From assembly GCA_945865815.1 (NCBI GenBank), contig CAMBFR010000022.1:1-42135 (forward strand): a stretch of 42,135 nucleotides of DNA. The letters run 5' to 3'. Source of the stretch: Candidatus Sulfopaludibacter sp. SbA3. Lineage in GTDB: Bacteria; Acidobacteriota; Terriglobia; 20CM-2-55-15. Below are positions 16,609 to 40,285 of the stretch, piece after piece. The notes beneath the pieces are model-generated. The model had not been told where the DNA came from and searched no databases. It saw only the letters and a program-made list of their open reading frames with translations. Both the position numbers and the translations under genes were made by a program. Every line of letters begins with the position of its first letter. The stretch's first letter is position 1.

Positions 16609-16619
16609 GCGTTGCCGGC

Positions 16620-16647
16620 TTGACATCGGTCAGCGACCCGTTATTTA
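16620..16647 (+). promoter_or_regulatory. Promoter candidate for TonB-dependent receptor 1
   Basis: TTGACA (16620-16625) and TATTTA (16642-16647) are 16 bases apart. The transcript would begin near 16655, leaving a leader of about 65 nt before the receptor start. Confidence 0.5.
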
Positions 16648-21778: not shown

Positions 21779-22651
21779 CTAGTTATTGTTATTGTTCGTC
21801 GTCGATGCGGCGTCGTCGAACACTTCGGGCCAATAGTAGGTCTGAACGACGTTCCGCGCGCCACTGGGAACAATGATTTCCTTGTGGAAGGGATTCAATG
21901 CCACTCCGGAAGGCGCTACATTAGTCAGCTGTTGAACTGGAATTCTCCAGCGCGCAGGAACATCGCCGGTGTCGGTAACGCTCCAGGCGCAGATAGCCCC
22001 GCCTGCACATGCCGTAACGATCATGCCGCTGGGTGTGACGCCGATCTGGCCGCCGCCACCGCCGCCACCACCGACGCCAATGCCGCTCTTCGGTCCCTGG
22101 ATGGCTTTCAGCGGTTTGGCATTGCCGCTCGCGGTGCGGTTAAACACCAGCAGTGGGCCGCCACCAGCGCTCTTTACGACCATGAGGTCGCGCTTTGGAT
22201 CGATCGCGATTCCCGCATGACCGGCTCTTGTGCCTTTAATTAATGTGTCAGGTCCGCTGAGGACTCGCTTGGGAGCGACGTCACCGTTTGCCAACCGGTC
22301 AAACACGAGGATGGATTCGTACGGAGAGGTATTTGTTCCGACAGGGATCAATATCTCGCCGTTGTCGCCATCCACGAACGCCTTGTCGTTACCGTCATAA
22401 TCCGTTCCAAGAATCTGGGTCTTGGGTCCCCGGATATATCGGATCGGCGCAGCCTCTCCGCTAGATCCTGCACGGAATGTCAGGATGGCCTGGTTGAATG
22501 GGCTGCTCACGACGATTTCATCGTTCACTGCGTTGTACGAGAGGTTGTGCATCGTACGGCTGATGAGGGTCTTCTGTCCTTCAATAATTCTTACCGGGAG
22601 AGTGTCTTCTTTCGCCAACCTGGCGAAGGCCGCAATGATCGGCGTGTTCAC
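21779..22651 (-). CDS. Propeller protein copy 1, part after the in-frame UGA
   Basis: These 290 residues begin at GTG directly behind the UGA at 22652-22654 and are in the same frame as the preceding part. They continue the propeller repeats (units ending in APxRxIxGPKT). There is no signal peptide and no ribosome-binding site before the GTG. The first residues VNTPIIAAFARLAKED finish the blade that the upstream part begins. Cys residues in VTACAGGAICAW are shared with copies 3 and 4. The C-terminus is an Asn/Thr tail. The part is best read as the C-terminal section of one protein. Confidence 0.75.
   Translation of the reverse strand: MNTPIIAAFARLAKEDTLPVRIIEGQKTLISRTMHNLSYNAVNDEIVVSSPFNQAILTFRAGSSGEAAPIRYIRGPKTQILGTDYDGNDKAFVDGDNGEILIPVGTNTSPYESILVFDRLANGDVAPKRVLSGPDTLIKGTRAGHAGIAIDPKRDLMVVKSAGGGPLLVFNRTASGNAKPLKAIQGPKSGIGVGGGGGGGGQIGVTPSGMIVTACAGGAICAWSVTDTGDVPARWRIPVQQLTNVAPSGVALNPFHKEIIVPSGARNVVQTYYWPEVFDDAASTTNNNNN
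22609..22629 (-). promoter_or_regulatory. SECIS-like hairpin, copy 1
   Basis: In the mRNA, nucleotides 23-43 after the UGA form a stem with one mismatch and the loop AGGUU. The inner six pairs (UUCGCC with GGCGAA) are perfect. The loop starts 31 nt after the UGA and has G at its second position, which fits the bacterial SECIS pattern as I recall it. Confidence 0.65.
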
Positions 22652-24013
22652 TCAGTTGGGCACCAGGTACTCTTCCCGCTTACTGTCATAAGCAACGGCC
22701 TGTGGTTTTCCAAACTTCAATGACACGCGGCCGGCCGGCGCGCTGCGGATGGTGCGTATGGGCGCCACGTTTCCATTCGCCATGAGCGGGAAGGCGGAGG
22801 CCGAAGAGTTGCCCATGTTGGAAACCCAGACCTCTTTGTTCTTCGCATCGACGGAAACGCTTGCCGGATGATTCAGGCCGGTCTTGTCTCCCTTGATTGT
22901 TCTCGTTGGGGCCACATTGCCATTGTCGGTTGCCTTGAAAACGACGACCGAACTGTTGACGTCGTTGCCGACATACAGATCGCCGCTTTCGGGCTCGATG
23001 GAGAATCCGCCCATCCAGTTCAGTGTTGTGCGGTCACCCTGAATCTTGCGGATTGGAGCGACATCTCCGTTCGCGTCGAGCGGGTAAACCGTAATTGAAG
23101 GAGGATGCCAGGTGCCGGTTCCCGGGACCGTATACGTGCTGTCGTTGCCCCAGCTGCCGACGTACATCACCTTTCTTTTCACATCAACAGCGATCCCGTG
23201 GGCATCGAAGATTTGAGTTTTCGGTCCCTCGATGACGCGCAGGGGAGCGTCGTTGCCATTGGCGTCCTTGCGGTACACCACCACTTTCGGCGGGTACTGG
23301 ATTGTGACGAAAATTTCGCCCTTCTCTTCATCGAGCGCGGACTGGAAGTTCCGATGAGGAGTTCGCAGCCTGCGCTTCGGCGCCACATCGCCATTGGCTT
23401 CCGCATCAAACACAAATACGCTGTCTGCGGTGTCCATCGCGACCGAATAAATGTCGCCGTTCTTGTCGATCGAGAGGCCGTTGTTGTACTCGTTAAGAGT
23501 CTTCGGTCCCAAAATTACGCGCTTCGGCGTAGCTGCTGTGACGGTCGCCGGTGTGTTCTCCAGCCGGTTGAATACCTTAATGCTGAAGTGATTGGTGTCC
23601 TGCAGGACAACCTCGTCGCGCTCGGGATCGACCGCAATGGAACTGTAGATTGGATATGAGTCTTTGATCGTGCGGACCGGCATGCGGGTTATGTCGTTGG
23701 TTGCCCCGCCGTTCTGGGCCGCATGTACCGTCTGGTTCAACACGGCATACAAGCTGAACCCGGAACCGCTGGCCTGCTCCTGCAACGCGGCGATCGCGCT
23801 CGCGCCGTCACTCGGCGCTTCCAGGCAGGTATCTGCGTAAGAGGGTAGCTCTTCAACGGAAACCAATCGAGCAGATCCCATACTGCTTACCGGGTTCGCC
23901 GCCGGTGCAGCAGGCGATTCCGGCCGTTCAACGAAGGACAAGGAAAGGACTCCAAATGCGATCACCAGGACCGCAAGCCCCGCTCTCCTGCCTGTACTTC
24001 TTTCAAAACGCAT
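22652..24013 (-). CDS. Propeller protein copy 1, N-terminal part ending in an in-frame UGA
   Basis: The 453-residue part has a basic N-terminus, a hydrophobic export segment (AVLVIAFGVLSLSF), a conserved motif LPSYADTC with one Cys, and then repeated NHL-like units (VAVD...IxVFxxxxxGxxAPxRxIxGP). The frame ends with YLVPN and UGA, and continues without shift in the next 290 codons. If the UGA is read, the protein has 744 residues with selenocysteine at 454. RBS AGGAGG precedes the start. It is divergent from receptor 2. Confidence 0.8.
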   Translation of the reverse strand: MRFERSTGRRAGLAVLVIAFGVLSLSFVERPESPAAPAANPVSSMGSARLVSVEELPSYADTCLEAPSDGASAIAALQEQASGSGFSLYAVLNQTVHAAQNGGATNDITRMPVRTIKDSYPIYSSIAVDPERDEVVLQDTNHFSIKVFNRLENTPATVTAATPKRVILGPKTLNEYNNGLSIDKNGDIYSVAMDTADSVFVFDAEANGDVAPKRRLRTPHRNFQSALDEEKGEIFVTIQYPPKVVVYRKDANGNDAPLRVIEGPKTQIFDAHGIAVDVKRKVMYVGSWGNDSTYTVPGTGTWHPPSITVYPLDANGDVAPIRKIQGDRTTLNWMGGFSIEPESGDLYVGNDVNSSVVVFKATDNGNVAPTRTIKGDKTGLNHPASVSVDAKNKEVWVSNMGNSSASAFPLMANGNVAPIRTIRSAPAGRVSLKFGKPQAVAYDSKREEYLVPN

Positions 24014-24162
24014 AAGCCTCCTTCTCAGAAACCGTTCGTCAGCGATACGCCAAACGTGGCGATGTGGTTACGAGTTATCCAGCAACTCTAGCATCAGCCC
24101 GGCGCTCTCTCCACCTTTTAAAATAGCTTTAAGCCGCCTTTTTTCAGTGGCCACCGGGCTTC

Positions 24163-24191
24163 TTGACGCGGCGGGCTTGCTTGGTTATGAT
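24163..24191 (+). promoter_or_regulatory. Promoter of TonB-dependent receptor 2
   Basis: TTGACG (24163-24168), a 17-base spacer and TATGAT (24186-24191) make one of the best sigma-70-type promoters in the window. The transcript would start near 24198, about 110 bases before the receptor start. Confidence 0.6.
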
Positions 24192-24230
24192 GCGCCCACT
24201 ATTTGAGACTCCAAATTCGTGTGAGCCTGT

Positions 24231-24276
24231 CCGCACGCGGGTTTACGTGCGGCAATCTCGACGCACAGAGAGATTG
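24231..24276 (+). promoter_or_regulatory. Structured 5' leader of receptor 2 mRNA
   Basis: Two adjacent perfect hairpins lie in the untranslated leader: CCGCACG/CGTGCGG (24231-24252) and CAATCTC/GAGATTG (24253-24276). They touch without a gap. They may stabilise the mRNA or serve in regulation; no known riboswitch is recognised. Confidence 0.45.
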
Positions 24277-24309
24277 TTTCCGATTCAGGGGATAAAGGGG
24301 AGGTCCATC

Positions 24310-27300
24310 ATGAAAAGACTGTTGTTCGCAGCGTTAGCGCTGCTGTGTCTTGTATCCGCCAACACGTTCGCTCAAACGAGCAACGCCACTGTAGGCGGGA
24401 CTGTTTCCGACGCCACGGGCGCTTTGATTCCGGGCGTGACGGTCACAGCTACAAACACGGGAACCGGAATCGTTACCACTGTAATTACTAATGAATCCGG
24501 GGCTTACCAGTTTGCCAGTCTCCAGACCGGAGCCTATAGCGTGAGCGCCGAACTGCCGGGCTTTCAGACCCAGACTTACAACGCGGTCACGCTTGGCATC
24601 TCGCAGCAGGTGCGGTTGAACTTCACGCTGCAGGTGGGTTCTGTCGCCCAGGCGGTTGAAGTAACCGTAGCGGCGGACACGGCTATCGCGACAACGTCTT
24701 CTTCGGTGGGTACCGTGCTTACCCTGGACAAAGTGCGCGACCTTCCTCTGGGAAGCCGCAATGTAATGGATCTGCTCGGATCGACGGCCGGCGCAGGTCC
24801 CACAGACGGAGAGAAGGATGGTTTCTTCGCGGGCGGCCGGCTTAGCGCGGTGAATGTGACGCGGGACGGCTTCGTGGTTTCTGACGGCCGATACATTCAT
24901 GGAGCGTTTTCCTCCACCTATGTCAGTCCCGACCTGGTCGAAGAAGTGCGCGTTATCACCGCGCCAGTCGATGCCGAAGCGGGACGCGGCTCCGGTCAGG
25001 TGCAGATGGCCACGCGCTCCGGAACCAACCAGTTCCGCGGCAGCGTGTTTTGGACCAACCGCAACTCGGCGCTCGACGCCAGCAGCTGGTTTAACAATCG
25101 TAATAACGTTCGAAAGGACTATGAAAACCGGAACCAGTTTGGCGCCCGCATCGGCGGCCCGATCATCAGGAACAAGACATTCTTCTTTGCCCTTGTGGAC
25201 GAGCAGCGTTACATCTTCAAGCAGAGCTTTGTTGGACCCGTCCTGACGAATGAGGCGCGGCAGGGCACCTTCCGATTTTTCCCGGGCGCCGACAACGGCA
25301 ACGCGATTTCGAACAACCCGACTGTCGATCGGAACGGCAATCCGGTAAGACCCACAGCCGCCACTGGTGATCTCCGACAATTCAGCGTGTTCAACCGGGA
25401 TCCATTCCGTCCGGGATACGATCCGACTGGTTTCATCCAGAACACGTTCCTGTCAAAAATGCCGCAGCCGAACGATTTCACGATTGGCGACGGCCTGAAC
25501 ACGGCTGGAATTCGGTTTACGCGCCGCATCAGCGGGCTGGATCTCGCCGACGGTCAGGGGTACGACACGAACCGCGATCAGTTCAACATGCGGCTCGATC
25601 ACAACTTCAACGAAAGTCATAAGGCCAGTTTTGTCTACACCTATGAACGTGGCCTCAACCATACCACCCAGGCGGGCATCATGCAGTGGCCGGGCGGGTA
25701 CGATGGCGCGAACAACAAGTGGCCCCGATTGATGAATGGATCCCTCGTATCCACGTTGTCATCAACGGTGGTAAACGAACTTCGCATCGGGTATCGCAAC
25801 ACAAAGCAGGCCAGCTGGGCGGCGTATTACGTCGGCCGTCCTTTGTTTGATGAGGGCGAGCCGGTCGAGCCAGGATTGACGGCATTCAAGATTCTTCCCC
25901 AGAGGGACGGGGTACCATTCCTGGTGCATAGCACGCTGTTTCCGGAAAACCTGGTGAAATGGAGTTCTTCGAACCCGGAAACACGTCAATCCAATAGCCC
26001 GCTTTTCACTTATGCGGATAACCTGAGCTGGTCAAAGGGCGCGCACGCATTCAAGTTCGGTGGCGAACTGCGCTATGCCACGTCCCGCTCAGGCAGCGAC
26101 ACCAATTTCACGCCGCGCGCGGTTCTGGGCGCTGGCGGTGTGGCGGTAACTGGAATAGACAATACGTCGGTCCCCGGTCTGACCGGCAACAACCAGACAT
26201 TGGCGCGAAACCTGCTGACCGATCTGTCCGGATCGGTTGCAAGCATCGTCGAGGCCTTCGATATTCGAGACCCAAAGGAGACGGTATTCCGCGGATACAA
26301 GGACGGAGTAAAACTGCAGATCCGCGATTGGCATACGACGGAGTTCAACTGGTTCGTCAAGGACAGTTGGAAAGTACGGCCGTCTCTGACGCTGAATCTC
26401 GGCGTCCATTATGAATTCTTTGGCGTGCCATACGAAGGAAAGGGCCTTGCAGGAGCCCCTGTTGGGGGAGAAAAAGGAATTTGCGGAATTACCTGCGGCT
26501 CGCTCACCACAGTCGAGTTTGTAGGCAAGAACTCCACAAATCCGGACAGGCAAATGTGGGGCGATGACTACAACAACTTTGCGCCTTCGTTTGGTTTGAG
26601 CTGGTCGCTTCCATGGCTTGGAAGAGATAAGACGGTCCTTCGCGCGGGATATGGCTGGAGCTATACAGGCAGCTCGCTGAGCGTGGTCGCTTTGTCCTCC
26701 GTATTCGGTCGTGCCCTGCCGGGCACGTTCGGCGGTTCGGTCAATAACGGTCTGTCGTTCACGTCGCGCGATTACCTCTCACTGTCCAACATGAGACTGC
26801 CGATACCGCAGCAGTTTGCGCCGCTGCAAGCCGTCCCACTGAACGGCGCCAGGAATGAAACAATCCCCGCGGGCGTCGATAACCGTGTCGCGCCTTACAT
26901 TCAAAACTTCAACTTAGAGCTTCAGAGGGAACTTGCCAGAGATCTGTCGGTCAGCATCGCGTATGTCGGAACCAAAGGCACCAGGCTCTGGTCCGGAGTT
27001 CCGCAGAACTCCGTCAACGTCAATGCGGCCCTGGCTGGCGGGCAAACCTTCCTCGACGCGTTCAACGTGACACGCGCCGGAGGCAACGCCCCGATGTTCG
27101 ACCAGATGCTGCGAGGCCTGAACATGGGTTCGGGCGCGGTCAACGGCACAACAGTGACAGGATCGGCGTCGCTTCGCGCGAACACGAATACTCGCGCGTT
27201 TATCGCAAATGGCAATGTCGGCCAGCTCGCGGATTTCCTGAACCGGAGCACAAGCGTCACGGGCAGGGGCGGCGGTCTCCTGGATAATAGCGGGTTGTTC

Positions 27301-28197
27301 CCCCAGAACTTCTTCGTGCAGAATCCGCAGTTCCAGTTTGTGACCTTGCACGGAAATGCGCTCAACTCGACGTATCATTCGATGCAGATCCAGGTGAACA
27401 AAAGGCTGTCGGAGGGCTTCACCAATCAAACGACGTACACATGGAGCCGGGCGCTCGGCGCAAGCGATGACGACGCGACGAAGGACTTCCGTGACCACCG
27501 GAACAGGTCTTTGGATAAATCTGTGCTGGGGTACCATCGCACCCACGCCTTCACTACGAACGGCACATACCAGTTGCCATTCGGTGCGGGACAAGCACTG
27601 CTGGCCAATGCTCCGGGATTCGTTCAGCGGATCGTCGAACGCTGGCAGCTTGGCGGACTCTTCAGTTGGACTTCAGGAGCGCCGATAAACGTCCTGGCGC
27701 CCGTTTCCTCGGTCAATCAGATCACCACGTTCATGACTCCGAATATCGCGGGTGATGTTCCGAAGAGCTTTGGCGAAATCACGAAGCTGCCAAACGGCGT
27801 GACGTACTTCCCCGGCATCCGGCAGATTGCGGATCCGGCTGTTGGCGGTGTCACGACGGCCAACTCCCTTAGCGGCCAGTTCAGCAACAAGGCCATTACC
27901 GACGAGCAGGGCAACCTTCTTCTCGCGAACCCGGCTCCCGGCCAGGTCGGCAATATGGGCCTGAGATGGATCGAGGGAAATCGGGTCCTCGGTTTCGACG
28001 CCAACCTGATCAAGCAAGTGCAGATTACGGAAACGAAGAATTTTGAATTGCGAGTGGACGTGGTCAATCTGTTGAACACTCCTCAGTTCGCCGTCCCGGT
28101 GGTTGCGAACATGAGCATCAATTCAACCAGCTTCGGCCGTATTACGTCAGCCACCGGCAACCGGCGATTCACAGTCGGCGCCCGGCTGAACTTCTAA
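24310..28197 (+). CDS. TonB-dependent receptor 2 (Oar-like, divergent)
   Basis: The 1295-residue protein has a signal peptide (cleavage after NTFAQ), an N-terminal carboxypeptidase-regulatory-like domain (about 24-105: VGGTVSDATGALIPGVTV), a plug region, and a long barrel ending in VGARLNF with the C-terminal aromatic residue. It is longer and clearly different from receptors 1 and 3, which resemble each other. The start at 24310 is fixed by GGGGAGG; the frame extends 147 bases farther upstream but that part overlaps the promoter. It is divergent from propeller copy 1, with 296 bp between them. Confidence 0.9.
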   Translation: MKRLLFAALALLCLVSANTFAQTSNATVGGTVSDATGALIPGVTVTATNTGTGIVTTVITNESGAYQFASLQTGAYSVSAELPGFQTQTYNAVTLGISQQVRLNFTLQVGSVAQAVEVTVAADTAIATTSSSVGTVLTLDKVRDLPLGSRNVMDLLGSTAGAGPTDGEKDGFFAGGRLSAVNVTRDGFVVSDGRYIHGAFSSTYVSPDLVEEVRVITAPVDAEAGRGSGQVQMATRSGTNQFRGSVFWTNRNSALDASSWFNNRNNVRKDYENRNQFGARIGGPIIRNKTFFFALVDEQRYIFKQSFVGPVLTNEARQGTFRFFPGADNGNAISNNPTVDRNGNPVRPTAATGDLRQFSVFNRDPFRPGYDPTGFIQNTFLSKMPQPNDFTIGDGLNTAGIRFTRRISGLDLADGQGYDTNRDQFNMRLDHNFNESHKASFVYTYERGLNHTTQAGIMQWPGGYDGANNKWPRLMNGSLVSTLSSTVVNELRIGYRNTKQASWAAYYVGRPLFDEGEPVEPGLTAFKILPQRDGVPFLVHSTLFPENLVKWSSSNPETRQSNSPLFTYADNLSWSKGAHAFKFGGELRYATSRSGSDTNFTPRAVLGAGGVAVTGIDNTSVPGLTGNNQTLARNLLTDLSGSVASIVEAFDIRDPKETVFRGYKDGVKLQIRDWHTTEFNWFVKDSWKVRPSLTLNLGVHYEFFGVPYEGKGLAGAPVGGEKGICGITCGSLTTVEFVGKNSTNPDRQMWGDDYNNFAPSFGLSWSLPWLGRDKTVLRAGYGWSYTGSSLSVVALSSVFGRALPGTFGGSVNNGLSFTSRDYLSLSNMRLPIPQQFAPLQAVPLNGARNETIPAGVDNRVAPYIQNFNLELQRELARDLSVSIAYVGTKGTRLWSGVPQNSVNVNAALAGGQTFLDAFNVTRAGGNAPMFDQMLRGLNMGSGAVNGTTVTGSASLRANTNTRAFIANGNVGQLADFLNRSTSVTGRGGGLLDNSGLFPQNFFVQNPQFQFVTLHGNALNSTYHSMQIQVNKRLSEGFTNQTTYTWSRALGASDDDATKDFRDHRNRSLDKSVLGYHRTHAFTTNGTYQLPFGAGQALLANAPGFVQRIVERWQLGGLFSWTSGAPINVLAPVSSVNQITTFMTPNIAGDVPKSFGEITKLPNGVTYFPGIRQIADPAVGGVTTANSLSGQFSNKAITDEQGNLLLANPAPGQVGNMGLRWIEGNRVLGFDANLIKQVQITETKNFELRVDVVNLLNTPQFAVPVVANMSINSTSFGRITSATGNRRFTVGARLNF

Positions 28198-28204
28198 AAG
28201 CAAG

Positions 28205-28237
28205 GCGGGATTCCTCTTCAAGGAGGGGGAATCCCGC
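28205..28237 (+). repeat. Inverted repeat after receptor 2
   Basis: GCGGGATTCC (28205-28214) and GGAATCCCGC (28228-28237) form a 10-bp stem a few bases after the stop. It has no T-run, and a full terminator follows. Confidence 0.6.
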
Positions 28238-28259
28238 ATCCTCCGTTTCCACTAAAATA

Positions 28260-28304
28260 AAAAGGGGATCCGGACGGTTTTCCCGTCCGGATCCCCTTTT
28301 TTTC
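28260..28304. terminator. Bidirectional terminator between 28197 and 28315
   Basis: An 18-bp stem (28260-28277 with 28283-28300) with flanking A- and T-runs separates two converging genes. Confidence 0.9.
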
Positions 28305-28314
28305 TGGAGCCTTT

Positions 28315-29097
28315 CTAGCGGCCTTCGTCGCCGAGTGTGGGAACCAGGTTACCGAGGTCCTTTTCATTCTCCAAGCAGGAGTGATCGAAAATGTATTCTC
28401 CGATATCCCGCTTGAGAATTTTCTTACCGGTAAATGGTTTCACGAAGTACACCGGATCCGTGTAGGTGACTATGTATTCGAGCGTGTTGTTGTCTGCCAG
28501 TCTGAACTTTTCAGTCAAGTGCAGTTGGTCGCTGTGTTCGTGGCCGGCGCCGTCCAGCCATGTTCTGTCGTTGATGCTGATTGTATCGACGACAAGCGTA
28601 TCGCCCTCCCATTTGCCGATCGAGTATCCGTAGAATCCGGGATAATCCTTGGCGTCTGGCGGATGAGGACGTCCATCGGTGTAGATGAGGCGGAAGATGT
28701 GCTCGGACTCGCTCATGACGACGACCACGTCGGGGCGCTGGACAATCATGGTCGGGTGGGCTCTGGCCGTCATGCGTGACGGGCCTGGAGGCAGGCACAG
28801 TGTATTCGGATCCTTCGCATGATCGACGACCTTGTATCTTTCGGCTGCCATGGGCGTCAGTATCAATTCCTCGCCCGGTAATGCCATCGCTGCAATATCG
28901 CTCATGGATCCGCCGGACCAGACACCCGTAAGGTCGGGCGTGGCGCCACGAGGCGGAGCATCGCCCCTATACCACCAGGCGCCGAACGTGGGCTTCGGTT
29001 TGGCAGGTTCTGCCCCGCCGCGCTGCGCAAACGCAGGCGCTGTTGTAAGGGTAAAAACGAACAGAGAAGCAACCGCAAAAGCGAAACGTTTATTCAT
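28315..29097 (-). CDS. Exported protein, paralogue of the one at 13349
   Basis: The 260-residue protein has a signal peptide (SLFVFTLTTAPAFAQ). It shares with the protein at 13349-14209 the order of motifs: LCLPPG, a Tyr-rich IYTDGRPHPPD, YSIGKWEGDTLVVDTISI, HxEKFRL-type strand, and a Cys near the end. The function is unknown. It lies 11 bases downstream of the DUF6152 gene on the same strand and is probably in one operon with it, a pairing that I have seen repeatedly in acidobacterial genomes. RBS AGGGAGA. Confidence 0.65.
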   Translation of the reverse strand: MNKRFAFAVASLFVFTLTTAPAFAQRGGAEPAKPKPTFGAWWYRGDAPPRGATPDLTGVWSGGSMSDIAAMALPGEELILTPMAAERYKVVDHAKDPNTLCLPPGPSRMTARAHPTMIVQRPDVVVVMSESEHIFRLIYTDGRPHPPDAKDYPGFYGYSIGKWEGDTLVVDTISINDRTWLDGAGHEHSDQLHLTEKFRLADNNTLEYIVTYTDPVYFVKPFTGKKILKRDIGEYIFDHSCLENEKDLGNLVPTLGDEGR

Positions 29098-29108
29098 GCT
29101 CGTCTCCC

Positions 29109-29522
29109 TTATTGCTCGCCTTGTTGCGCTTCGGGATTCGAGGTGCCGGCAAACACCCGGCGTCCGTCCGCCAGAGTCACCCGGTTGCCGTTCATGTTAG
29201 CTTCGCCGTTTTTTGCCGCCCAGCCTTCCACTGTCACGGTATCGCCGACCTTCAATGCATCTTTACCCCAGCCGCGTCTGCGCAGCGAACCCGGAGTACC
29301 GCCTTCAACCGCGTAATTAACGATCTTGCCGTCGGCATTCTTCACATCCACATAGAAGTAAATGTGGGGATTCATGAACTCCACCTTCGTGACAGGGCCT
29401 GTGATTTTTATGGTCTTCTTGCTGTCGTACTGCGCCGCAAATGAATGATGCGCCAGCACCGGCGCTGCCGCGAACACGATTCCCAGTCCTGCTGCCAATA
29501 ACCCGTAAACGTTACGTCTCAT
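29109..29522 (-). CDS. DUF6152 family exported protein
   Basis: The 137-residue protein has a signal peptide ending in VLAHHSFAAQYD, the hallmark start of the mature DUF6152 domain. The body (TKVEFMNPHIYFYVDVK, GKDALKVGDTVTVEGWAAK, NRVTLADGRRVFAG) is an OB-like barrel. The function is unknown; the family is common in proteobacteria and acidobacteria, often near secreted proteins. The start at 29522 is chosen for AAAGGAG nine bases upstream; the frame extends farther, but without a signal peptide at its start. Confidence 0.8.
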   Translation of the reverse strand: MRRNVYGLLAAGLGIVFAAAPVLAHHSFAAQYDSKKTIKITGPVTKVEFMNPHIYFYVDVKNADGKIVNYAVEGGTPGSLRRRGWGKDALKVGDTVTVEGWAAKNGEANMNGNRVTLADGRRVFAGTSNPEAQQGEQ

Positions 29523-29716
29523 TTCGCTCGCTCCTTTAGTCTTCGAGAAGGTCCGTAGTTGAATGCCTCGCATTGTTAAGCCCGTCCTCCAAAATGTCAA
29601 TTTCAAACTCTTGCGGAATGCCACCCAGGAATCCCGTGACAATGAATGACCCCTGTGTTTACATCTGGCAATAACATCAGTTGTTTCTCCGAGATAGACA
29701 GATTCCGAGGAGGCAT

Positions 29717-31042
29717 ATGCGCGCACCAGGCAAACGCCGGAAAGCAACCCTTGCTGTGCTGATAGCGTCCGCGATGGGTTTCTTTTGCTGGGCTTTAATA
29801 GAACCGCCGGAACTCAGCGTCCGGCAATCGGCCGGTTATCCGCAACTGGTTTCCGTTAAGCAGTTGCCGGATTTTGCGGATTTATGTGAATGGCCATCAG
29901 AAGACAAATCCAGCATTACGCGGCTGGAAGAGACCAGACAGTTCGAGTTGCAGCAGGCATCCGTATACGCACAGAACGGCACTGCGACGACAGTTGATGT
30001 AACCCGGCCTCCGGTTCGCACCATCCGCGACACGTATCCGATCTATAGTTCCGTTGCCGTCGATCCCAACTTTGACGAAGTCATCCTTCAGGATAACAAC
30101 CTGTGGGCAACGGCGATATTCAAGCGGACGGACAACACGCCTCCCAACGTTCCGTTTACCGAACCGCAGCGTTTGATCAAAGGCGCGGAAACAGACATCC
30201 AGTTCAACAACGGCCTGTACGTCGATCCGAAAATCGGCGAAATCTATTCGATCGAATCGGACACCGGCGACAAGATCGTCATGTTCAGTCACGATTCCAT
30301 CGGAAACGTTGCGCCGGTTCGCCATCTGGAGACTCCGCATCGTGGCTACGGGATCGCTGTCGACGAAGAACGACAGGAGATGTTCGTCAGCGTGGAGTAC
30401 CCGCCGCAGGTGGCGGTATATCGAAAACAGGCTTCCGGGAAGGAAGAGCCGTTACGCGTCCTGATGGGCGATAACACAGGGTTGCACGCCATTCACGGGA
30501 TCGCGGTCGATTCGAAGAACAAGCTCTTGTATATCAACAACTGGGGCAACTTCAGCAATTTCAGGGTTCCCGGTTCGGGCAAATTCAATCCTCCTTCGAT
30601 CACCGTCTACCCGATCGATGCGAAGGGTGACGCTGCTCCGATTCGCAAGATCCAGGGGCCTAAGACCCAGATGAACTGGCCCGCAGCCATGGCTCTGAAT
30701 CCGGATACGCAGGATCTCTATGTCGCTAACGATGTGGGCAACTCGATCCTCGTTTTCAAGGCGACGGATCAGGGTGACGTCGCGCCGACGCGAGTTATCA
30801 AAGGCGAAAAGACGGCCTTGTCCAATCCTACCGGCGTGTCTCTCGATATGAAGAATCGAGAGTTCTGGGTTGCCAACCTCGGAAATTCTTCCGCGACGGC
30901 ATATCCGCTGATGGCCAGCGGCAACGTCGCGCCTGCCCGCATCATTCGCAGCGCGCCTCTCGGCTACAAGTCGACGAAGTTCGGCAAGACCGAGGCGGTC
31001 GCGTATGACACTAAACGCGAAGAATACCTGGTGCCTAACTGA
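29717..31042 (+). CDS. Propeller protein copy 2, N-terminal part ending in an in-frame UGA
   Basis: The 441-residue part has a basic start and export segment (AVLIASAMGFFCWALI), the motif LPDFADLC, and the repeated units seen in the other copies. It ends in YLVPN and UGA (31040-31042), and the same frame continues for 273 codons. With readthrough it has 715 residues and selenocysteine at 442. GAGGAGG lies just before ATG 29717. It is followed by copy 3 on the same strand; both may be co-expressed. Confidence 0.8.
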   Translation: MRAPGKRRKATLAVLIASAMGFFCWALIEPPELSVRQSAGYPQLVSVKQLPDFADLCEWPSEDKSSITRLEETRQFELQQASVYAQNGTATTVDVTRPPVRTIRDTYPIYSSVAVDPNFDEVILQDNNLWATAIFKRTDNTPPNVPFTEPQRLIKGAETDIQFNNGLYVDPKIGEIYSIESDTGDKIVMFSHDSIGNVAPVRHLETPHRGYGIAVDEERQEMFVSVEYPPQVAVYRKQASGKEEPLRVLMGDNTGLHAIHGIAVDSKNKLLYINNWGNFSNFRVPGSGKFNPPSITVYPIDAKGDAAPIRKIQGPKTQMNWPAAMALNPDTQDLYVANDVGNSILVFKATDQGDVAPTRVIKGEKTALSNPTGVSLDMKNREFWVANLGNSSATAYPLMASGNVAPARIIRSAPLGYKSTKFGKTEAVAYDTKREEYLVPN

Positions 31043-31864
31043 GTGAACCATCCGCAGATTGCGGCCTTCCCCAGGTTGGCGAAGGAAAATCAGGCACCGA
31101 CGCGTTCCCTGCAGGGTCAGAACACGCTCATCAGCAGGACCATGCACGACATTCAATACGACTCACTCCACGATGAAATTCTTGTCAACAGTCCCCTCAC
31201 GCAGGCGATCCTGGTATTCGATGGAGGAGCCAACGGAGAAGAAGCGCCAAAGCGGGTGATCCAGGGCTCGAAGACCCAGATTCTCGGGGTCGGCGCAATG
31301 GACAAAGTCAGCTTTGATCCGGCGACCGGCGACATCTACCTGGCAACCGCCCGGCATAACATCGTGGTATTCCCATATGGATCGAACGGCGACGTTGCGC
31401 CCGTCCGAACTCTGGGCGGTCCCGACACGCTGATTCGATTCATTGACCAGACCGATGGAAGCGGCAACACGCCGCCCATACGCGTCGATCCGGTAAACAA
31501 TCTCCTGGTGGTGCCGACCCGGCCTCCCGGTCAAATTCCCGGTCTGCTGATCTTCGATAAGAACGCCAGCGGAAACACCAAGCCGCTGCGCGTGATCCGT
31601 GGGCCAAAAACGATGATTGCGGGCGGCCAGCAAATGGCGATCTCGCCGAAGGGCTATATCGTCGCGGGCGCTACGGGGAATTCAATTGGCGTCTGGAGCA
31701 TCCTGGACAACGGCGATGTGCCTCCGAAGTGGAGAATCCCGGTACGGCAGATCTCCGGGCTCAACGTCAACGGGATCGCGCTCAATCACAGGGATCAGGA
31801 ACTCATGGTTCCCACCGGCAACGGAAATACGGTCATGACGTTCTACTTCCCGGAAATATTCTGA
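31043..31864 (+). CDS. Propeller protein copy 2, part after the in-frame UGA
   Basis: These 273 residues start at GTG next to the UGA, in frame. They read VNHPQIAAFPRLAKEN and complete the split blade. This copy is the most divergent: it has H instead of T three residues after the UGA and lacks the two Cys of the other C-terminal parts (GATGNSIGVW in place of SCxxGxICAW). There is no Shine-Dalgarno site before the GTG. Confidence 0.75.
   Translation: MNHPQIAAFPRLAKENQAPTRSLQGQNTLISRTMHDIQYDSLHDEILVNSPLTQAILVFDGGANGEEAPKRVIQGSKTQILGVGAMDKVSFDPATGDIYLATARHNIVVFPYGSNGDVAPVRTLGGPDTLIRFIDQTDGSGNTPPIRVDPVNNLLVVPTRPPGQIPGLLIFDKNASGNTKPLRVIRGPKTMIAGGQQMAISPKGYIVAGATGNSIGVWSILDNGDVPPKWRIPVRQISGLNVNGIALNHRDQELMVPTGNGNTVMTFYFPEIF
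31065..31085 (+). promoter_or_regulatory. SECIS-like hairpin, copy 2
   Basis: The hairpin starts 23 nt after the UGA with an 8-pair stem containing one C-C mismatch, and carries the AGGUU loop at the same distance as in the other copies. An outer pair is restored by a change on the other side (AAG in place of AAA), so the stem is kept where the codon varies. Confidence 0.65.
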
Positions 31865-31871
31865 GAAGCGT

Positions 31872-31891
31872 GCGCGGTCATAAGGCCGCGC
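31872..31891 (+). repeat. Short inverted repeat between propeller copies 2 and 3
   Basis: GCGCGG (31872-31877) and CCGCGC (31886-31891) form a stem 8 bases after the stop of copy 2. Without a T-run it is only a weak terminator candidate. Confidence 0.4.
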
Positions 31892-32014
31892 CCGACCCAC
31901 CCACCTTCCAGTTCTGCCAAATACTTTGACAACCAACTTGCCGCTGTGGTCCCATCTGCCCAGCGTTTAGAACAAAAATTCGACAGAAATTTCCAAAGTC
32001 CCGAAGGAGGGCTT

Positions 32015-33313
32015 ATGCGTGCAAAAAGCGCAGGCAGGAGCGCAATTTTCGCGGGAATACTCGCGATTGCGTTTGGCGTCTTCTCCTGGTCCCTGTTAAC
32101 TACGCCGGACCTGAGCGTTCGGCAATCCACCGGTTCCGCCCGGCTGGTCTCCATCGAGCAGTTGCCCGACTACGCAGACGTCTGCGCTCCGGAAGAGATG
32201 AGCGCTATCGCCGCTCTGCATGCGGAGTTCGAGCACAACACGTCCGTGTACGCGGCGGACACCGTCGAGGTGAATCGTCCTCCGGTCCGCACGATTCGCG
32301 ACACCTATCCGATTTATAGCTCGGTCGCCGTTGATCCGGTCCGCAACGAAGTTGTACTGCAGGACACGAATCTGTTCAGCATCAAGGTGTTCAATCGCCT
32401 GGAAAATACACCGGCAAACGTGGATGCTTCCACGCCGAAGCGAGTGATCATCGGTCCCGATACCAAGAACGAGTACAACAACGGCCTTTACGTCGACCTG
32501 GCGAACGGCGAGACCTATTCGGTGGCAATGGACACTGCCGACGCCATATTCACTTTCCGCGCGGGCGCCGAGGGAAACACGGAACCGATGCGTGTGCTGG
32601 ATATTCCTCATCGCGGCTTCCAGGTCACCATCGATGAAGAGAGGCAGGAGCTCTACTCGACAAATCAGTATCCACCGAGATTGCTTGTGTTTCGTAAAGG
32701 CGCTTCCGGAAATGAAAAGCCGTTGCGCGTTATCGAAGGACAACGCACGGGATTGGCGGACGTCCACGGCGTGGCCGTCGATTCTCAGAGGAAACTGGTA
32801 TTCGTCGGCAACTGGGGCAATTCGAGCAACTACAAGGTTGCTGGTTCGGGAAAACACCTTCCTCCGTCAATTACGATTTACTCCACCGATGCGAACGGTG
32901 ATGCTGCTCCGTTACGAACAATCCAGGGACCAAAGACGCAATTGAACTGGATGGGAGCCTTCTCGCTCGATCCTGAGACCGGCAATCTTTGGGTCGCCAA
33001 CGACGTCGGTAATTCGATCCTGGTCTTCCGAGGGACCGATAACGGGGACGTTGCCCCGATGAAAGTCATCAAAGGCGAGACGACCCGTTTGGATCACCCT
33101 GCCGGCATCTCGATCGATACGAAGAATAAAGAGGTCTGGGTTTCCAACATGGGTAACTCCTCGGCGACGGCATACTCGCTGACGGCGGCTGGAAACGCGG
33201 CTCCGATACGTACGATTCGCAGCGCACCTGTAGGTTGGAAGTCGTTGAAGTTCGGCAAGCCCCAGGTAGTGGCATATGACAGCAAGCGGGAAGAGTACCT
33301 GGTACCCAACTGA
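32015..33313 (+). CDS. Propeller protein copy 3, N-terminal part ending in an in-frame UGA
   Basis: The 432-residue part has an export segment (FAGILAIAFGVFSWSLL), the motif LPDYADVC, and the repeated NHL-like units. It ends in YLVPN and UGA (33311-33313), with the frame open for 281 more codons. With readthrough it has 714 residues and selenocysteine at 433. GGAGGG lies before ATG 32015. It is closely related to copy 4 in its N-terminal part (shared runs such as FRAGAEGNTEPMR). Confidence 0.8.
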   Translation: MRAKSAGRSAIFAGILAIAFGVFSWSLLTTPDLSVRQSTGSARLVSIEQLPDYADVCAPEEMSAIAALHAEFEHNTSVYAADTVEVNRPPVRTIRDTYPIYSSVAVDPVRNEVVLQDTNLFSIKVFNRLENTPANVDASTPKRVIIGPDTKNEYNNGLYVDLANGETYSVAMDTADAIFTFRAGAEGNTEPMRVLDIPHRGFQVTIDEERQELYSTNQYPPRLLVFRKGASGNEKPLRVIEGQRTGLADVHGVAVDSQRKLVFVGNWGNSSNYKVAGSGKHLPPSITIYSTDANGDAAPLRTIQGPKTQLNWMGAFSLDPETGNLWVANDVGNSILVFRGTDNGDVAPMKVIKGETTRLDHPAGISIDTKNKEVWVSNMGNSSATAYSLTAAGNAAPIRTIRSAPVGWKSLKFGKPQVVAYDSKREEYLVPN

Positions 33314-34159
33314 GTGAACACGCCAGTAATTATGGCTTACGCCAGGTTGGCGAAAGAAAATACGGTTCCCGTTAGAATTCTGGAAGGTCAAAAGACTCTG
33401 ATCAGCCGCACGATGCACTCGATGGAATACGACGCGGTTCGCGACGAGCTTGTCGTGAACAGTCCGCTCGTACAGTCGATCCTGACGTTTAAGGGAGGAT
33501 CCAACGGAGAAGTACCACCGGTTCGAGTCATTCAGGGCCCCAAGACTCAGATACAGGGCACCGATTACGATGGCAACGACAAGATGGCCATAGATCCCGT
33601 TAATGGAGAAATTTTCATCGGCTCCGCCACAAGCGCCGGTCCCGGTAAGGGTGTAGTTCTGGTATTCGACCGGATGGCGAACGGAGACGTGGCGCCCAAG
33701 CGCATTCTTGGAGGACCCAAAACACAATTTGATTTCCCCACGCCGAAGGGGCAGGGTTTCCCGCACATGACGGTTGATCCCGTCCGCAATCTCCTGATCG
33801 TCAGCACCCGCGGGGGGCTTCTGATTTTTGACCGCGCTGCCAGCGGCGATGTGAGTCCCAAGCGTGTGATCAAAGGGCCCAAGACTCTTCTCACTGCCGG
33901 CAATGGCGGCGGCCTTATTAAGGTTTATTCGCCCAACGGCATGATCGTCAGTAGTTGTACCGAAGGATCGATTTGCGCGTGGCACATCGACGATGTTGGC
34001 GATGTTGCTCCGCGCTTTAAGATTCCGGTTCAGAAGCTCACGGGAGTCAACTTCTCGGGGCCCACTCTGAATCCGCTACATAAAGAGGTCATCGTTACCA
34101 GCAGCAGCCGGAACGTCATTGCGACGTTCTACTGGCCCGAAATTTTCGAGACGCCCTGA
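33314..34159 (+). CDS. Propeller protein copy 3, part after the in-frame UGA
   Basis: These 281 residues start at GTG right after the UGA, in frame, with VNTPVIMAYARLAKEN. They contain the Cys pair in SSCTEGSICAW and the end motif HKEVIVTSSSRNV, then FYWPEIF, shared with the other copies. There is no independent export signal. Confidence 0.75.
   Translation: MNTPVIMAYARLAKENTVPVRILEGQKTLISRTMHSMEYDAVRDELVVNSPLVQSILTFKGGSNGEVPPVRVIQGPKTQIQGTDYDGNDKMAIDPVNGEIFIGSATSAGPGKGVVLVFDRMANGDVAPKRILGGPKTQFDFPTPKGQGFPHMTVDPVRNLLIVSTRGGLLIFDRAASGDVSPKRVIKGPKTLLTAGNGGGLIKVYSPNGMIVSSCTEGSICAWHIDDVGDVAPRFKIPVQKLTGVNFSGPTLNPLHKEVIVTSSSRNVIATFYWPEIFETP
33336..33356 (+). promoter_or_regulatory. SECIS-like hairpin, copy 3
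   Basis: The hairpin has the same position and AGGUU loop as in the other copies. The inner four pairs are perfect, followed by one A-A mismatch and three more pairs. Confidence 0.65.
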
Positions 34160-34180
34160 CGAAAGCGTTTTGAAGAGACG

Positions 34181-34210
34181 AAACTCCCCTCCCGGACGGG
34201 AGGGGAGTTT
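34181..34210. terminator. Terminator after propeller copy 3
   Basis: A 13-bp perfect stem (34181-34193 with 34198-34210) with A- and T-runs at its outer ends follows the stop of copy 3 by about 20 bases. Three short copies of CTTACAG follow it (34213-34240). Confidence 0.85.
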
Positions 34211-34391
34211 GCCTTACAGCCTCTTACAGGCCCTTACAGGCTTAGTTACCTTGACAGTGCGGCCACCCTCGTAAATAATCCCCCCCAAAAAAAATTATTC
34301 TGCCGTTAAAACATATATCTGGCCGCCGTTCGGAATACTTTTCCGTCTTGGTTAAGCGAACAGGGGGACGAAGTCCGTTTCTTCCACCCCC

Positions 34392-34637
34392 GTCCAGCAA
34401 GAAGAGAAACTCCTCGGCAGCAACGTCATTCATATGCTGTACCGGTATGAGGCGAACCCGGCGGTATTCGTTTCCGGCGTCGGCGATGCGAATCGGAGAT
34501 GCTTCCTGAACGGCGTAGCGGTTCCATATACGGTGAATCCGGGCGCCGCCTGCTCCACAACTGGAAATACGAATGCACGGCGCATGCTGAGCCTGGCGAA
34601 TCCGGACGTTGGGCGGTACATCAAGCGGACAGCGTAG
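34392..34637 (+). pseudogene. Remnant of a TonB-dependent receptor
   Basis: The frame reads through LGSNVIHMLYRYEANPAV and GAACSTTGNTNARRMLSLAN, which correspond to the barrel region of receptor 1 (GSQVVHQL, EANPAVYIPG, CSATGNTNQRR) and to the same region of receptor 3. It covers only about 80 codons, with no start, no plug, and no barrel end. This is a broken relic of a fourth receptor, between propeller copies 3 and 4, where a partner receptor would be expected. Confidence 0.7.
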
Positions 34638-34660
34638 CGGCGGTCATAGGACCGCCGCTA
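34635..34660 (-). terminator. Terminator hairpin after propeller copy 4
   Basis: A perfect 11-bp stem (34635-34645 with 34650-34660, loop ATAG) lies eight bases after the stop of the gene at 34669. A T-run is not obvious, so it may need a helper factor. The left half overlaps the stop of the receptor remnant. Confidence 0.6.
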
Positions 34661-34668
34661 CAGTCGCT

Positions 34669-35481
34669 CTAGCCGAATATTTCCGGCCAGTAGAACGTGA
34701 TGATGACGTTTCTACTGCCGCTGGGCAGGATGATCTCCTTGTGAACCGGATTGATGGCGAGTCCTGAAAAGCCCACTCCGGTGATTTGTTGAGCCGGGAT
34801 CTTGAAGCGCGGCCCAACAGCTCCAGTATCCTCGATGCTCCAGGCGCAAATCGATCCACCCTGGCAGCTTCCGATGATCATTCCGTTTGGCGCATTGATT
34901 TTTACCTGACCGCCTCCACCGGTTATCGTTCTAAGCGGCCTGGCATTTCCAGAAGCGGTTCGATCGAAAATCCGGATCTGCCCGCCCGTCGCCACAGCCA
35001 GGAGATTGCGGGTCGCGTCCACGGCAACGTTCGGAAATCCTTGTCCTTTGGCAGTGGGAAAAGTAAATCCGGTGTCGGGACCGCCGAGAATACGTTTGGG
35101 CGCCACGTCGCCGTTTGCCATCCGATCGAACACCAGAATCACGCCCTTGCCGGCTCCACCGGCTGTTGCGCTTGGAAGATAGATTTCGCCGTTGACCTGA
35201 TCGAGGGCGATCTTATCGTTGCCGTCGTAGTCGGTTCCCTGAATCTGCGTCTTCGGTCCTTGAATGACTCGAATCGGCGGTTCTTCGCCACCGGCGCCAC
35301 CGCGGAATGTCAGGATGGTCTGAGTCAGGGGGCTGCCAACGACGATTTCGTCGTAGAGGGCGTTGTATTCGAGGGCATGCATTGTCCGGCTGATTCGGGT
35401 TTTCTGTCCTTCGAGGAATCTCAGCGGAGCCGTATTCTCTCTCGCCAACCTGGCGAAGGCCGCAATGACCGGCGTGTTCAC
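34669..35481 (-). CDS. Propeller protein copy 4, part after the in-frame UGA
   Basis: These 270 residues start at GTG next to the UGA, in frame, with VNTPVIAAFARLAREN. They complete the propeller, with the Cys pair in GSCQGGSICAW and the end motif HKEIILPSGSRNV, then FYWPEIFG. There is no signal peptide or ribosome-binding site. Confidence 0.75.
   Translation of the reverse strand: MNTPVIAAFARLARENTAPLRFLEGQKTRISRTMHALEYNALYDEIVVGSPLTQTILTFRGGAGGEEPPIRVIQGPKTQIQGTDYDGNDKIALDQVNGEIYLPSATAGGAGKGVILVFDRMANGDVAPKRILGGPDTGFTFPTAKGQGFPNVAVDATRNLLAVATGGQIRIFDRTASGNARPLRTITGGGGQVKINAPNGMIIGSCQGGSICAWSIEDTGAVGPRFKIPAQQITGVGFSGLAINPVHKEIILPSGSRNVIITFYWPEIFG
35439..35459 (-). promoter_or_regulatory. 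SECIS-like hairpin, copy 4
   Basis: The hairpin is at the same distance from the UGA as in the other copies, with the loop AGGUU. One pair of the stem is a U-G wobble where copies 1-3 have A, so pairing is kept although the codon changed from AAA to AGA. Confidence 0.65.
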
Positions 35482-36843
35482 TCAGTTGGGCACGAGATAT
35501 TGTTCTCGCTTGCTGTCGTAGGCGACTGCCTGAGGCTTTCCGAATTTCACGGACTTTCTTCCCACAGGACCGCTGCGGATCGTGCGTATGGGCGCGACGT
35601 CTCCATTTGCCGCCAGCGAATAAGCTGTGGCCGTGGAGTTGCCCATATTGGAAACCCACACTTCCTTATTCTTGGGATCGACCGAGATGCCAGCGGGATG
35701 GCTCAAGCCGGTCTTGTCGCCCTTCAGGACTTTCGTCGGGGCGACATCACCGTTGTCGGCGCTCTTGAAGACCAGGACCGAATTGCCGACGTCGTTGGCA
35801 ACCCACAGGTTTCCAGTTTCCGGATCCAGCGAGAAATTTCCCATCCAGTTCAATTGAGTCTTTGGCCCCTGGATGGTGCGCAGTGGAGCTGCATCTCCGT
35901 TGGCATCGATTGCAAAGACAGTAATCGACGGCAGATTGTGTTTGCCGGTGCCGGCAACCTTGTAGTTACTCTCGTTTCCCCAGTTGCCGACGAACACCAC
36001 GTTTCTCTTCGAATCGACCGCAACGCCGTGAACGTCCGCCAGTCCCGTGCGTGGGCCTTCGATCACGCGGATCGGTTTTTCACCGCCGGAAGCGCCTTTA
36101 CGGAATACCAGCAACCGGGGAGGATACTGGTTCGTCGAGTAGAGTTCCTGCCTGTCTTCATCGATGGTGACCTGGAATCCTCGATGAGGAATATTCAGAG
36201 TCCGCATGGGCTCGGTATTACCTTCAGCGCCGGCCCGGAACGTGAAGATGGCGTCCGCCGTGTCCATGGCGACCGAATAAATCTCGCCGTTCTGCGGGTC
36301 AATGTAGAGGCCGTTGTTGTACTCGTTCCTGGTGTCCGCGCCGATAATCATGCGTTTTGGCGTGGCAGCCTCAACGTCGGCCGGGGTATTTTCCAGCCGA
36401 TTGAATATCTTGATGCTGAACAGGTTCGTATCCTGAAGAACAATCTCGTCGCGCAAAGGATCAACAGCGACCGAGCTGTAGATCGGATACGTATCCCGGA
36501 TCGTGCGGACCGGCCGTCGAGTCACCTCGACGGTCGCTGCACCGTTCTGCATTGCAGCCTGTACCGACGCATCGAATGCGGGGAAAATGCTGGGTCTGCC
36601 ATTGGCCGCCTTTTCCAGTTCCGCAATCATGCTGTTCTCGGCGCCCGGTTCTCCCGGAGCGCAGAGATCGTTAAATTCGGGTAGCTGTTCGATGGAAACC
36701 AGCTGAGCCCCGCCCATCGGTATGCCGGACGCCGAATCAGAGTTCGGGGCCAGTCGTTCCAGCGCAGACAACCCGAAGAGGGCCATCGCGGTTACCGCTG
36801 CTACCGCAAGGACGCTTTTTCGGGCCTTCTTTTGTATGCGCAT
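35482..36843 (-). CDS. Propeller protein copy 4, N-terminal part ending in an in-frame UGA
   Basis: The 453-residue part has an export segment (AVAAVTAMALFGLSAL), the motif LPEFNDLC, and the repeated units. It ends in YLVPN and UGA (35482-35484); the frame continues for 270 codons. With readthrough it has 724 residues and selenocysteine at 454. AGGAGG precedes the start, which lies only 12 bases behind the stop of receptor 3, so the two genes form one operon. Confidence 0.82.
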   Translation of the reverse strand: MRIQKKARKSVLAVAAVTAMALFGLSALERLAPNSDSASGIPMGGAQLVSIEQLPEFNDLCAPGEPGAENSMIAELEKAANGRPSIFPAFDASVQAAMQNGAATVEVTRRPVRTIRDTYPIYSSVAVDPLRDEIVLQDTNLFSIKIFNRLENTPADVEAATPKRMIIGADTRNEYNNGLYIDPQNGEIYSVAMDTADAIFTFRAGAEGNTEPMRTLNIPHRGFQVTIDEDRQELYSTNQYPPRLLVFRKGASGGEKPIRVIEGPRTGLADVHGVAVDSKRNVVFVGNWGNESNYKVAGTGKHNLPSITVFAIDANGDAAPLRTIQGPKTQLNWMGNFSLDPETGNLWVANDVGNSVLVFKSADNGDVAPTKVLKGDKTGLSHPAGISVDPKNKEVWVSNMGNSTATAYSLAANGDVAPIRTIRSGPVGRKSVKFGKPQAVAYDSKREQYLVPN

Positions 36844-39800: not shown

Positions 39801-40218
39801 TTTCGATAACCTGCGCCACGCTCGAATTCCGCGTTTCCACCATGGCGGCGTTCGCCTGGACTTCGACTGTCTCGGAAACCTGACCGACTTCGAGGACGGG
39901 GTTGATGACGGGGCTGGCGTTTACCTGCAGTACGATACCCGTCTGCTGATAAGTGCGGAACCCGGGCAGCGAGGCCTCCAGCCGATATGGGCCAATCGCA
40001 AGGTTCGCGAGAACATAGGAGCCGGTTTCATTCGTTACGGAGTTTCGGACGATTCCGGTGTCCGTCTGCGTTGCCGTGATTTCCACGCCGGGTAATACTG
40101 CTCCGGATTGATCCCGCACCGTGCCGCTGATCTGCGCCGTTGCCTGCGCCCAAACCGAACTGCAAGTCAGGCCAAAAATAAGAATGCTGGTTGCTACGCC
40201 AAATACGATCCGCTTCAC
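36856..40218 (-). CDS. TonB-dependent receptor 3 (Oar-like)
   Basis: The 1120-residue protein resembles receptor 1 in length and sequence: signal peptide (ending VWAQA), carboxypeptidase-regulatory-like domain (ISGTVRDQSGAVLPGVEI), plug, barrel, and C-terminal ALKYVF. The start is probably GTG 40218, with GGAGGAGG seven bases upstream; an in-frame ATG at 40251 overlaps that site and would add an unlikely leader. It has its own promoter candidate at 40286-40313. It is followed after 12 bases by propeller copy 4 and preceded by the aldolase-like lipoprotein gene. Confidence 0.9.
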   Translation of the reverse strand: MKRIVFGVATSILIFGLTCSSVWAQATAQISGTVRDQSGAVLPGVEITATQTDTGIVRNSVTNETGSYVLANLAIGPYRLEASLPGFRTYQQTGIVLQVNASPVINPVLEVGQVSETVEVQANAAMVETRNSSVAQVIESARIMELPLNGRQVTDLITLAGGAVQTVTGRATNGSESVAISVGGGLGFSVEYTLDGANHINFVSGYNMNMPFPDALQEFKVETSGVSAAHGGGGAAVGAVTKSGTNEFHGDLFEFVRNDLFNATSYFAAVNPRTGKKVESTLKRNQFGGTIGGPIVQNKLFFFAGLQGTTLRQDPADRQSYVPTAAMLAGDWTAFASRACNAGVQRALRAPFLNRGADASGNTIYQIDPALYSNAARNISAKLPKPDDQCGLVTFGNRSKSDQYQMLGRVDYQVSASHSVFGRLLVTDLRSPNPFNTFSPDNILNVGTDGNHSTPWSLTLGDTYLIGPNTVQSFRFAYNQANHHRIGSEYFSYCDMGIKIDCTYAKTRMGSFQVTGGGGFATGNGSTVDDNKYLQHSYSFNDDVSLVRGNHQMSFGGSLTYGVHERNSHFVDGGTMRFDGSSTGLGMGDFLLGNVTSLTQGGTNHVFLDQYLFALYGTDAWKATPTLTLNYGVRWEPFLPQRMLDRGNLNFDYARFLAGTKSKVYPNAPAGVYYPGDEGYPGRKGINDRWAQFAPRLGLAWDVTGDGRTSVRASYAYSYSFISAQFREDSVQSAPWGNITTLQGVNLDDPWGRFPGGSPFPLVSTSAARFFNYGTFQSTPFDLPTPSTSSWNLSVQRQVAADFLASASYIGSSTAHIWAQQAANPAVYIPGGPCTLNGVTYATCSTTANTNQRRKLGLERPQDGQLMGLVGQLDAGATANYHAMLLSLERRAARGVTVSTNYTWSHCIGDYADLNSEGPNEAETYTNPGNRKFDRGNCSSDRRHVFNLTAIAETPQFTNPLLSKLATGWRLSGIYKRLAGSPFTVIAGSDRALIGIDNQRVNQVLASPYLDKSGRPGTQFLNPAAFAQPATGTLGNLGRGSIQGPPTWSFDTALSRAFRISETQRVEVRVEAYNLTNSFRPSFATTGASLLGLSLAGNTFGQVRQSLDPRIMQFALKYVF

Positions 40219-40285
40219 CGGTTCCTCCTCCAAAAAGGGCCTGAAATACACGCCCAGTCAACGGTTTCCATCAAGACAGTGTGCA

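Follow-up and report, generated by a model that had tools for sequence, protein, structure and literature searches.

Among six-bladed beta-propellers, peptidyl-alpha-hydroxyglycine amidating lyase (PAL) and SMP-30/gluconolactonase are enzymes whose active site lies centrally on the top face, where propeller enzymes generally keep it. One propeller, SELENBP1/SBP56, has been linked to selenium—it binds the element at a normal cysteine, and no UGA is involved. Prokaryotic proteins that carry selenocysteine (Sec) have been collected in a 2026 catalogue of 119 families (Table 1 of PMC13188914), none of which is a propeller or NHL family; these families combine an in-frame UGA with a bacterial selenocysteine insertion sequence (bSECIS) hairpin within 16-37 nt, the factors SelA, SelB and SelD, and tRNA-Sec, and they form Sec/Cys pairs. 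Here we describe a family of paralogous genes with the same features, found in a 42,135-nt contig of Candidatus Sulfopaludibacter sp. SbA3 (assembly GCA_945865815.1, contig CAMBFR010000022.1), the whole of which we call the window. Judging from the sequences, these genes almost certainly encode selenoproteins, in which a UGA is decoded as selenocysteine and not as a stop; this confidence applies to the selenoprotein claim and not to the reaction, which we grade separately. The decoding mechanism is known; what appears to be new among selenoproteins is the protein itself, with its fold and copy number.

The window holds four paralogues of about 720 aa, two on each strand. An earlier note, made by a model from the DNA letters, had placed the four genes at the positions given in Table 1, each with a single in-frame UGA at the same alignment position in the context LVPN-UGA-VN(T/H)P and with the frame running on for 270-290 codons. 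Translation with TGA as a residue, followed by alignment, bore this out: each copy has one internal TGA and then 270-290 open codons, and the four UGAs occupy one alignment column within an invariant LVPN-U-VN-[T/H]-P. The UGA is indeed kept despite divergence, the other window copies being 52-61% identical to copy 1. For pairs involving window genes, dN/dS is 0.08-0.15 upstream of the UGA vs 0.05-0.14 downstream; since it is no higher after the UGA than before, and since all ten family copies in the window's genome have one TGA at the site, the UGA is not there by chance. Neither has the code changed globally. We rejected a genome-wide reassignment of UGA, as TGA is the terminator of copies 2 and 3 and therefore still means stop in the source organism.

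Homologues were sought in 84,980 species genomes with seed patterns that exclude the UGA, so the scan is not biased toward UGA copies. It returned 47 loci, nearly all from Acidobacteriota, with 59 TGA codons and one TGC at the site. A single locus (L059, VBKX01000270.1) belongs to a metagenome-assembled genome labelled Deltaproteobacteria, by horizontal transfer or misbinning. In further searches, 8 out of 396 phylum genomes gave matches (L087 among these being a different propeller), as did 20 of 399 genomes of the class, and every full-length match reported from them had one TGA; a plasmid search gave distant propeller matches only, at about 28%. Over all fetched loci, mostly of Acidobacteriota, there are 93 distinct sites: 89 are TGA, four are cysteine codons (TGC/TGT), and none is UAA or UAG. 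Two candidates for stop-free homologues were rejected, L086 because its contig ends before the site and L087 because it is an unrelated NHL propeller. The site consensus is U-V-[A/N/T/G/S/V/M]-[H/T/Q/N]-P, most commonly U-V-A-H-P. Hence the fit to a UxxT pattern (UxxH in copy 2), proposed in the earlier note, did not hold up as a family feature, and neither did UxxC or CxxU—the +3 residue is H, T, Q or N, usually His, and no aligned homologue has a cysteine within three residues of Sec.

The earlier note had proposed asking whether cysteine replaces the UGA in homologues from genomes without Sec genes. The four Cys forms (L036/L120, L121, L122 and L123) have the cysteine codon in an uninterrupted frame, which in L036/L120 codes for 745 aa and shares 64-66% identity with copy 2. 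As the four belong to three backgrounds (VNHP, VNTP and IAQP types), we infer about three independent changes between Sec and Cys; in the tree, L036 branches from within the UGA copies (support 100/98), so that there the direction is Sec to Cys. That the UGA might be an inherited nonsense mutation, or the copies pseudogenes, finds some encouragement in the fragmented or frameshifted copies of certain draft genomes. However, the UGA is retained across copies 40-60% identical, purifying selection acts downstream of it, and the sites that are not UGA are all Cys; we consider this explanation, which the earlier note had called unlikely, vanishingly improbable, and nonsense inheritance is refuted by the conservation.

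A hairpin lies 3' of every UGA, typically CUUCGCCA-GGU-UGGCGAAG; about 31 nt separate its loop from the UGA. It has a 9-bp stem and a GG[U/C/A] loop, and is the sole consensus structure found by RNAalifold (-12.4 kcal/mol). The published bSECIS limits are a stem of 4-16 bp, an apical loop of 3-9 nt with an early G, a distance of 16-37 nt from the UGA and an energy of -7.5 or lower (PMC13188914); the family hairpin is within them by its consensus energy, with individual folds competing in copies 1 and 3. Across 57 sequences, 94% of cells are paired, and 27 two-sided compensated cells are seen vs 11.8 in shuffles; when the partner is slid by 1-3 columns, pairing falls to 30-56%. The pair 27-45, for instance, occurs as CG, AU, UA, GC and GU. 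A covariance model of the hairpin region, run on the window's genome, hits the ten gene copies and nothing else. The coding sequence is constrained as well: codons -1 to +13 are under the strongest synonymous constraint in the whole gene, with a mean entropy loss of 1.13 bits where the median is 0.21. AGG encodes Arg +11 in 35 of 36 sequences, though it makes up only about 10% of Arg codons, and all 35 codons for Ala +13 are GCG.

What we regard as the decisive natural control, at the level of sequence, is provided by the Cys forms. All 89 UGA copies keep 6-7 of the seven core pairs of the hairpin, whereas all four Cys copies keep 4-5, and in three of these four Ala +10 has become Ser. The family would thus hold a natural experiment, in which Sec-to-Cys switches come with matching decay of the SECIS. 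A further small hairpin, CCGCA-GAU-UGCGG (31052-31064 and homologues), lies between UGA and SECIS in PQIA-type copies, where its codons are constrained too; it is not found in window copies 1, 3 and 4.

The AlphaFold model (36 homologues; predicted local distance difference test, pLDDT, 87.5) has a hydrophobic N-terminal helix at residues 7-26, a low-confidence linker and twelve blades. In this predicted structure, residues 105-400 match six-bladed NHL propellers, such as TRIM3 (250 residues at 2.2 A, Z 30), and the second part, modelled alone (pLDDT 90.9), matches Trim71 (251 residues at 2.6 A, Z 25.8). With both halves predicted to form closed six-bladed propellers, each chain would contain two NHL-like propellers; Pfam matches to NHL, SGL and Lactonase are weak. 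The Foldseek rows with the top E-values, which are tandem WD proteins, were discounted at a TM of about 0.3. The modelled Sec442 of copy 2 directly follows strand B (436-441) in blade 1 of propeller 2, and strand C spans 447-452. The UGA thus falls within a single blade, between its strands B and C, so that only read-through yields a complete blade, as the earlier note had proposed.

This position bears on a second rival, stop-restart, in which the UGA ends a first protein and an adjacent GTG (TGAGTG) starts a second, giving two half-propeller proteins. GTG does directly follow the UGA at 53 of 60 sites; however, the remaining seven have GTA (4), GTC (2) or GTT (1). No Shine-Dalgarno sequence precedes the UGA, whereas GGAGG precedes the ATG of all four genes—the second part does lack a ribosome-binding site, as the earlier note said. 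The second protein would be without an export signal and would begin within a blade, and the four homologues with Cys at the site are single uninterrupted open reading frames. Restart also gives no reason for the conservation of the SECIS or for its decay in the Cys copies, and we judge it very improbable.

Reading of the UGA as Sec would require the dedicated machinery, and selA, selB, selD and tRNA-Sec, for which the earlier note had suggested a search, are all present in the window's genome (4.34 Mb, 98% complete). The search identified selA (E 4e-140), selB (E 1e-115) and selD (locus L018, E 3e-108), the last with its own in-frame TGA near the start, like known Sec-type SelD; the tRNA-Sec has the anticodon UCA and scores 69.9 bits against the Rfam model. 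Above the cut-off, 254 of the 396 Acidobacteriota genomes sampled have selB-like matches, so Sec use looks common in the phylum, and a check of 17 carrier or related genomes detected selA in 15. In the proposed mechanism, the SECIS inside the coding sequence would allow SelB with Sec-tRNA(UCA) to read the UGA, the factors being encoded in the genome and their action on this mRNA being supposed; the read-through product would be a single protein of about 720 aa.

SelB-dependent recoding of UGA as cysteine has been reported for some bacteria. The UGA might accordingly be read through the SelB route as cysteine or another residue, e.g., by a SelB-dependent tRNA-Cys, and the four homologues with Cys at the site would suit such decoding. 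Against it stands the full canonical Sec set, including SelA, SelD and the tRNA-Sec—although that search used the Rfam tRNA-Sec model, and a selC*-like tRNA was not specifically sought—and we hold this reading to be about as improbable as restart.

Several observations weigh against the selenoprotein interpretation and the proposed role of Cys57, a possible partner of Sec. Single-sequence folding gives the hairpins only a modest advantage over shuffled controls (z -1.0 to -2.3), and for copies 1 and 3 the minimum-energy structure is a competing fold; the case for the SECIS therefore rests on comparison. Additionally, two carrier assemblies among the 17 genomes checked yielded no selA, one of them being only 77% complete, and Cys57 is missing in 4 of 36 aligned members and in the Cys form L121.

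Table 1. Positions of the predicted selenoprotein genes, their elements and the neighbouring receptor genes in the window.
Feature	Position	Strand	Remarks
Copy 1, predicted propeller selenoprotein	21779..24013	-	744 aa with UGA read through; Shine-Dalgarno AAGGAGG 5' of ATG
Copy 2, predicted propeller selenoprotein	29717..31864	+	715 aa; Shine-Dalgarno GGAGG at 29709-29713; terminal TGA a true stop
Copy 3, predicted propeller selenoprotein	32015..34159	+	714 aa; terminal TGA a true stop
Copy 4, predicted propeller selenoprotein	34669..36843	-	724 aa
Predicted Sec codon (in-frame UGA), copy 1	22652..22654	-	residue 454
Predicted Sec codon (in-frame UGA), copy 2	31040..31042	+	residue 442
Predicted Sec codon (in-frame UGA), copy 3	33311..33313	+	residue 433
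Predicted Sec codon (in-frame UGA), copy 4	35482..35484	-	residue 454
Predicted bSECIS hairpin, copy 1	22609..22629	-	stem columns 26-34/38-46 of the alignment; GGU loop
Predicted bSECIS hairpin, copy 2	31065..31085	+	one C.C mismatch in stem
Predicted bSECIS hairpin, copy 3	33336..33356	+	
Predicted bSECIS hairpin, copy 4	35439..35459	-	
Oar-like TonB-dependent receptor (OMP_b-brl_4, CarboxypepD_reg)	24163..28197	+	recurrent neighbour of the family
Oar-like TonB-dependent receptor	36856..40251	-	adjoins copy 4
Oar-like TonB-dependent receptor	16719-19979		third in the window

The fold is shared with NHL propellers—TRIM2/3/71, the PknD sensor domain and the designed Pizza6—at Z of about 30 for propeller 1 and about 25 for propeller 2; in contrast to these, the window family would have two propellers in one exported chain, as well as Sec, and identity is 13-23%. 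PAL (3fvz) matches at Z 26.1 and 23.4; PAL and SMP-30/gluconolactonase are metal enzymes without Sec. Looked at for catalytic metal ligands of this kind, the family shows conserved His residues at strand-A entrances. As to SELENBP1/SBP56, the family has no match to PF05694 at E up to 0.1. Invariant or near-invariant residues include Asn441, beside Sec, Arg474 and His477, together with His208 and His260 in propeller 1. His477 lies at the strand-A entrance of the blade following the Sec blade. In propellers the B-C and D-A loops are on the same face, and Sec442 and His477 should therefore face the same mouth, as judged from secondary structure and homology. Two cysteines are possible partners of Sec: Cys57 (copy 2; 29885-29887), which is in the linker, in the motif LP..GEMC.W.P of most members, and is kept in 32 of 36, and Cys165, kept in 24 of 36.

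The N-terminal hydrophobic segment, acting as an anchor or signal, would make the protein exported, periplasmic and membrane-tethered. With Sec probably on the top face, where propeller enzymes hold their active site, a selenium-dependent enzyme is most likely, and by analogy the most likely kind is an exported, membrane-tethered selenium-dependent oxidoreductase. We lean toward extracytoplasmic catalysis by a selenol or a selenium-metal centre and would place the active site at the mouth of propeller 2; the selenol would attack or bind a metal or substrate, with Cys57, in the tail, possibly resolving the product of that step. Redox chemistry with Cys57 as the partner is itself rather unlikely. 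A tentative rival, less favoured than catalysis, is that the propeller mainly binds and Sec is a ligand for a metal or metalloid, e.g., in uptake or resistance linked to a TonB receptor, and not a redox catalyst. NHL-type Pizza6 propellers with pore His bind Zn or Cu, and 6rej, 6rek and 6reg are among the best structural matches; both propellers of the family have pore-type His (His208, His260 and His477), and TonB-dependent receptors adjoin its genes. On the other hand, catalysis is the usual role of Sec in other proteins (PMC13188914).

The genomic neighbourhood suggests a role linked to uptake, since Oar-like TonB-dependent receptors (OMP_b-brl_4) recur nearby, being adjacent to family genes at 19 of the 34 extended loci. 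Our boldest proposal, which we advance tentatively, is a Sec-based, possibly Sec-metal, site at the propeller mouth of an exported protein, belonging to the largest known single-family set and acting with TonB-dependent receptors in an undescribed extracytoplasmic process.

The earlier note knew of no named selenoprotein of this type, and we found none either. The motif PN-U-V-x-[H/T]-P does not occur in the catalogue of 119 families (PMC13188914), and in NCBIfam 20.0 no family exceeds its curated cut-off for the four full proteins or for 50 second-propeller halves. The open literature searched contains no propeller selenoprotein; an unvalidated listing in two relevant further papers is possible. 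If the interpretation is true, it adds a fold unseen among catalogued selenoproteins, and annotation pipelines that interpret UGA as termination would divide each gene of the family into two.

Copy number is the other unusual aspect. In addition to the ten copies in the window's genome, there are 21 in a near-complete relative (G423; 3.4 Mb, 100% complete; loci L097, L124, L134-L143), and a 4.2-Mb draft (G448, 83%; loci L092, L111, L121, L129, L131-L133) has 39 one-UGA matches, along with fragments and a single Cys copy. In PMC12013277, the largest bacterial selenogenome comprises at least 46 genes, which span many families; thus the 39-copy set looks like the largest single-family selenoprotein expansion, subject to the draft assembly. 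One lineage would then have multiplied one selenoprotein into tens of paralogues, and the implied selenium demand of Acidobacteriota from soil and groundwater would be large and so far unstudied. The expansion in G448 and G423 is lineage-specific, with some copies in tandem. Some copies (L124, L126, L127 and L130, in G423, G426 and G450) have an extra TAG or split frames, and may be decaying copies or assembly errors.

Rarer recurrent neighbours of the family are amidohydrolases, class II aldolases and a sulfite-oxidase-like molybdoprotein with c-type cytochromes. An open reading frame cluster (c2) that appeared to be a frequent neighbour was rejected, being the antisense frame of the propeller genes. 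The window itself has a sulfite-oxidase-like molybdoprotein at 14803-16626, and the same family, with c-type cytochromes, occurs near copies at loci L025 and L027.

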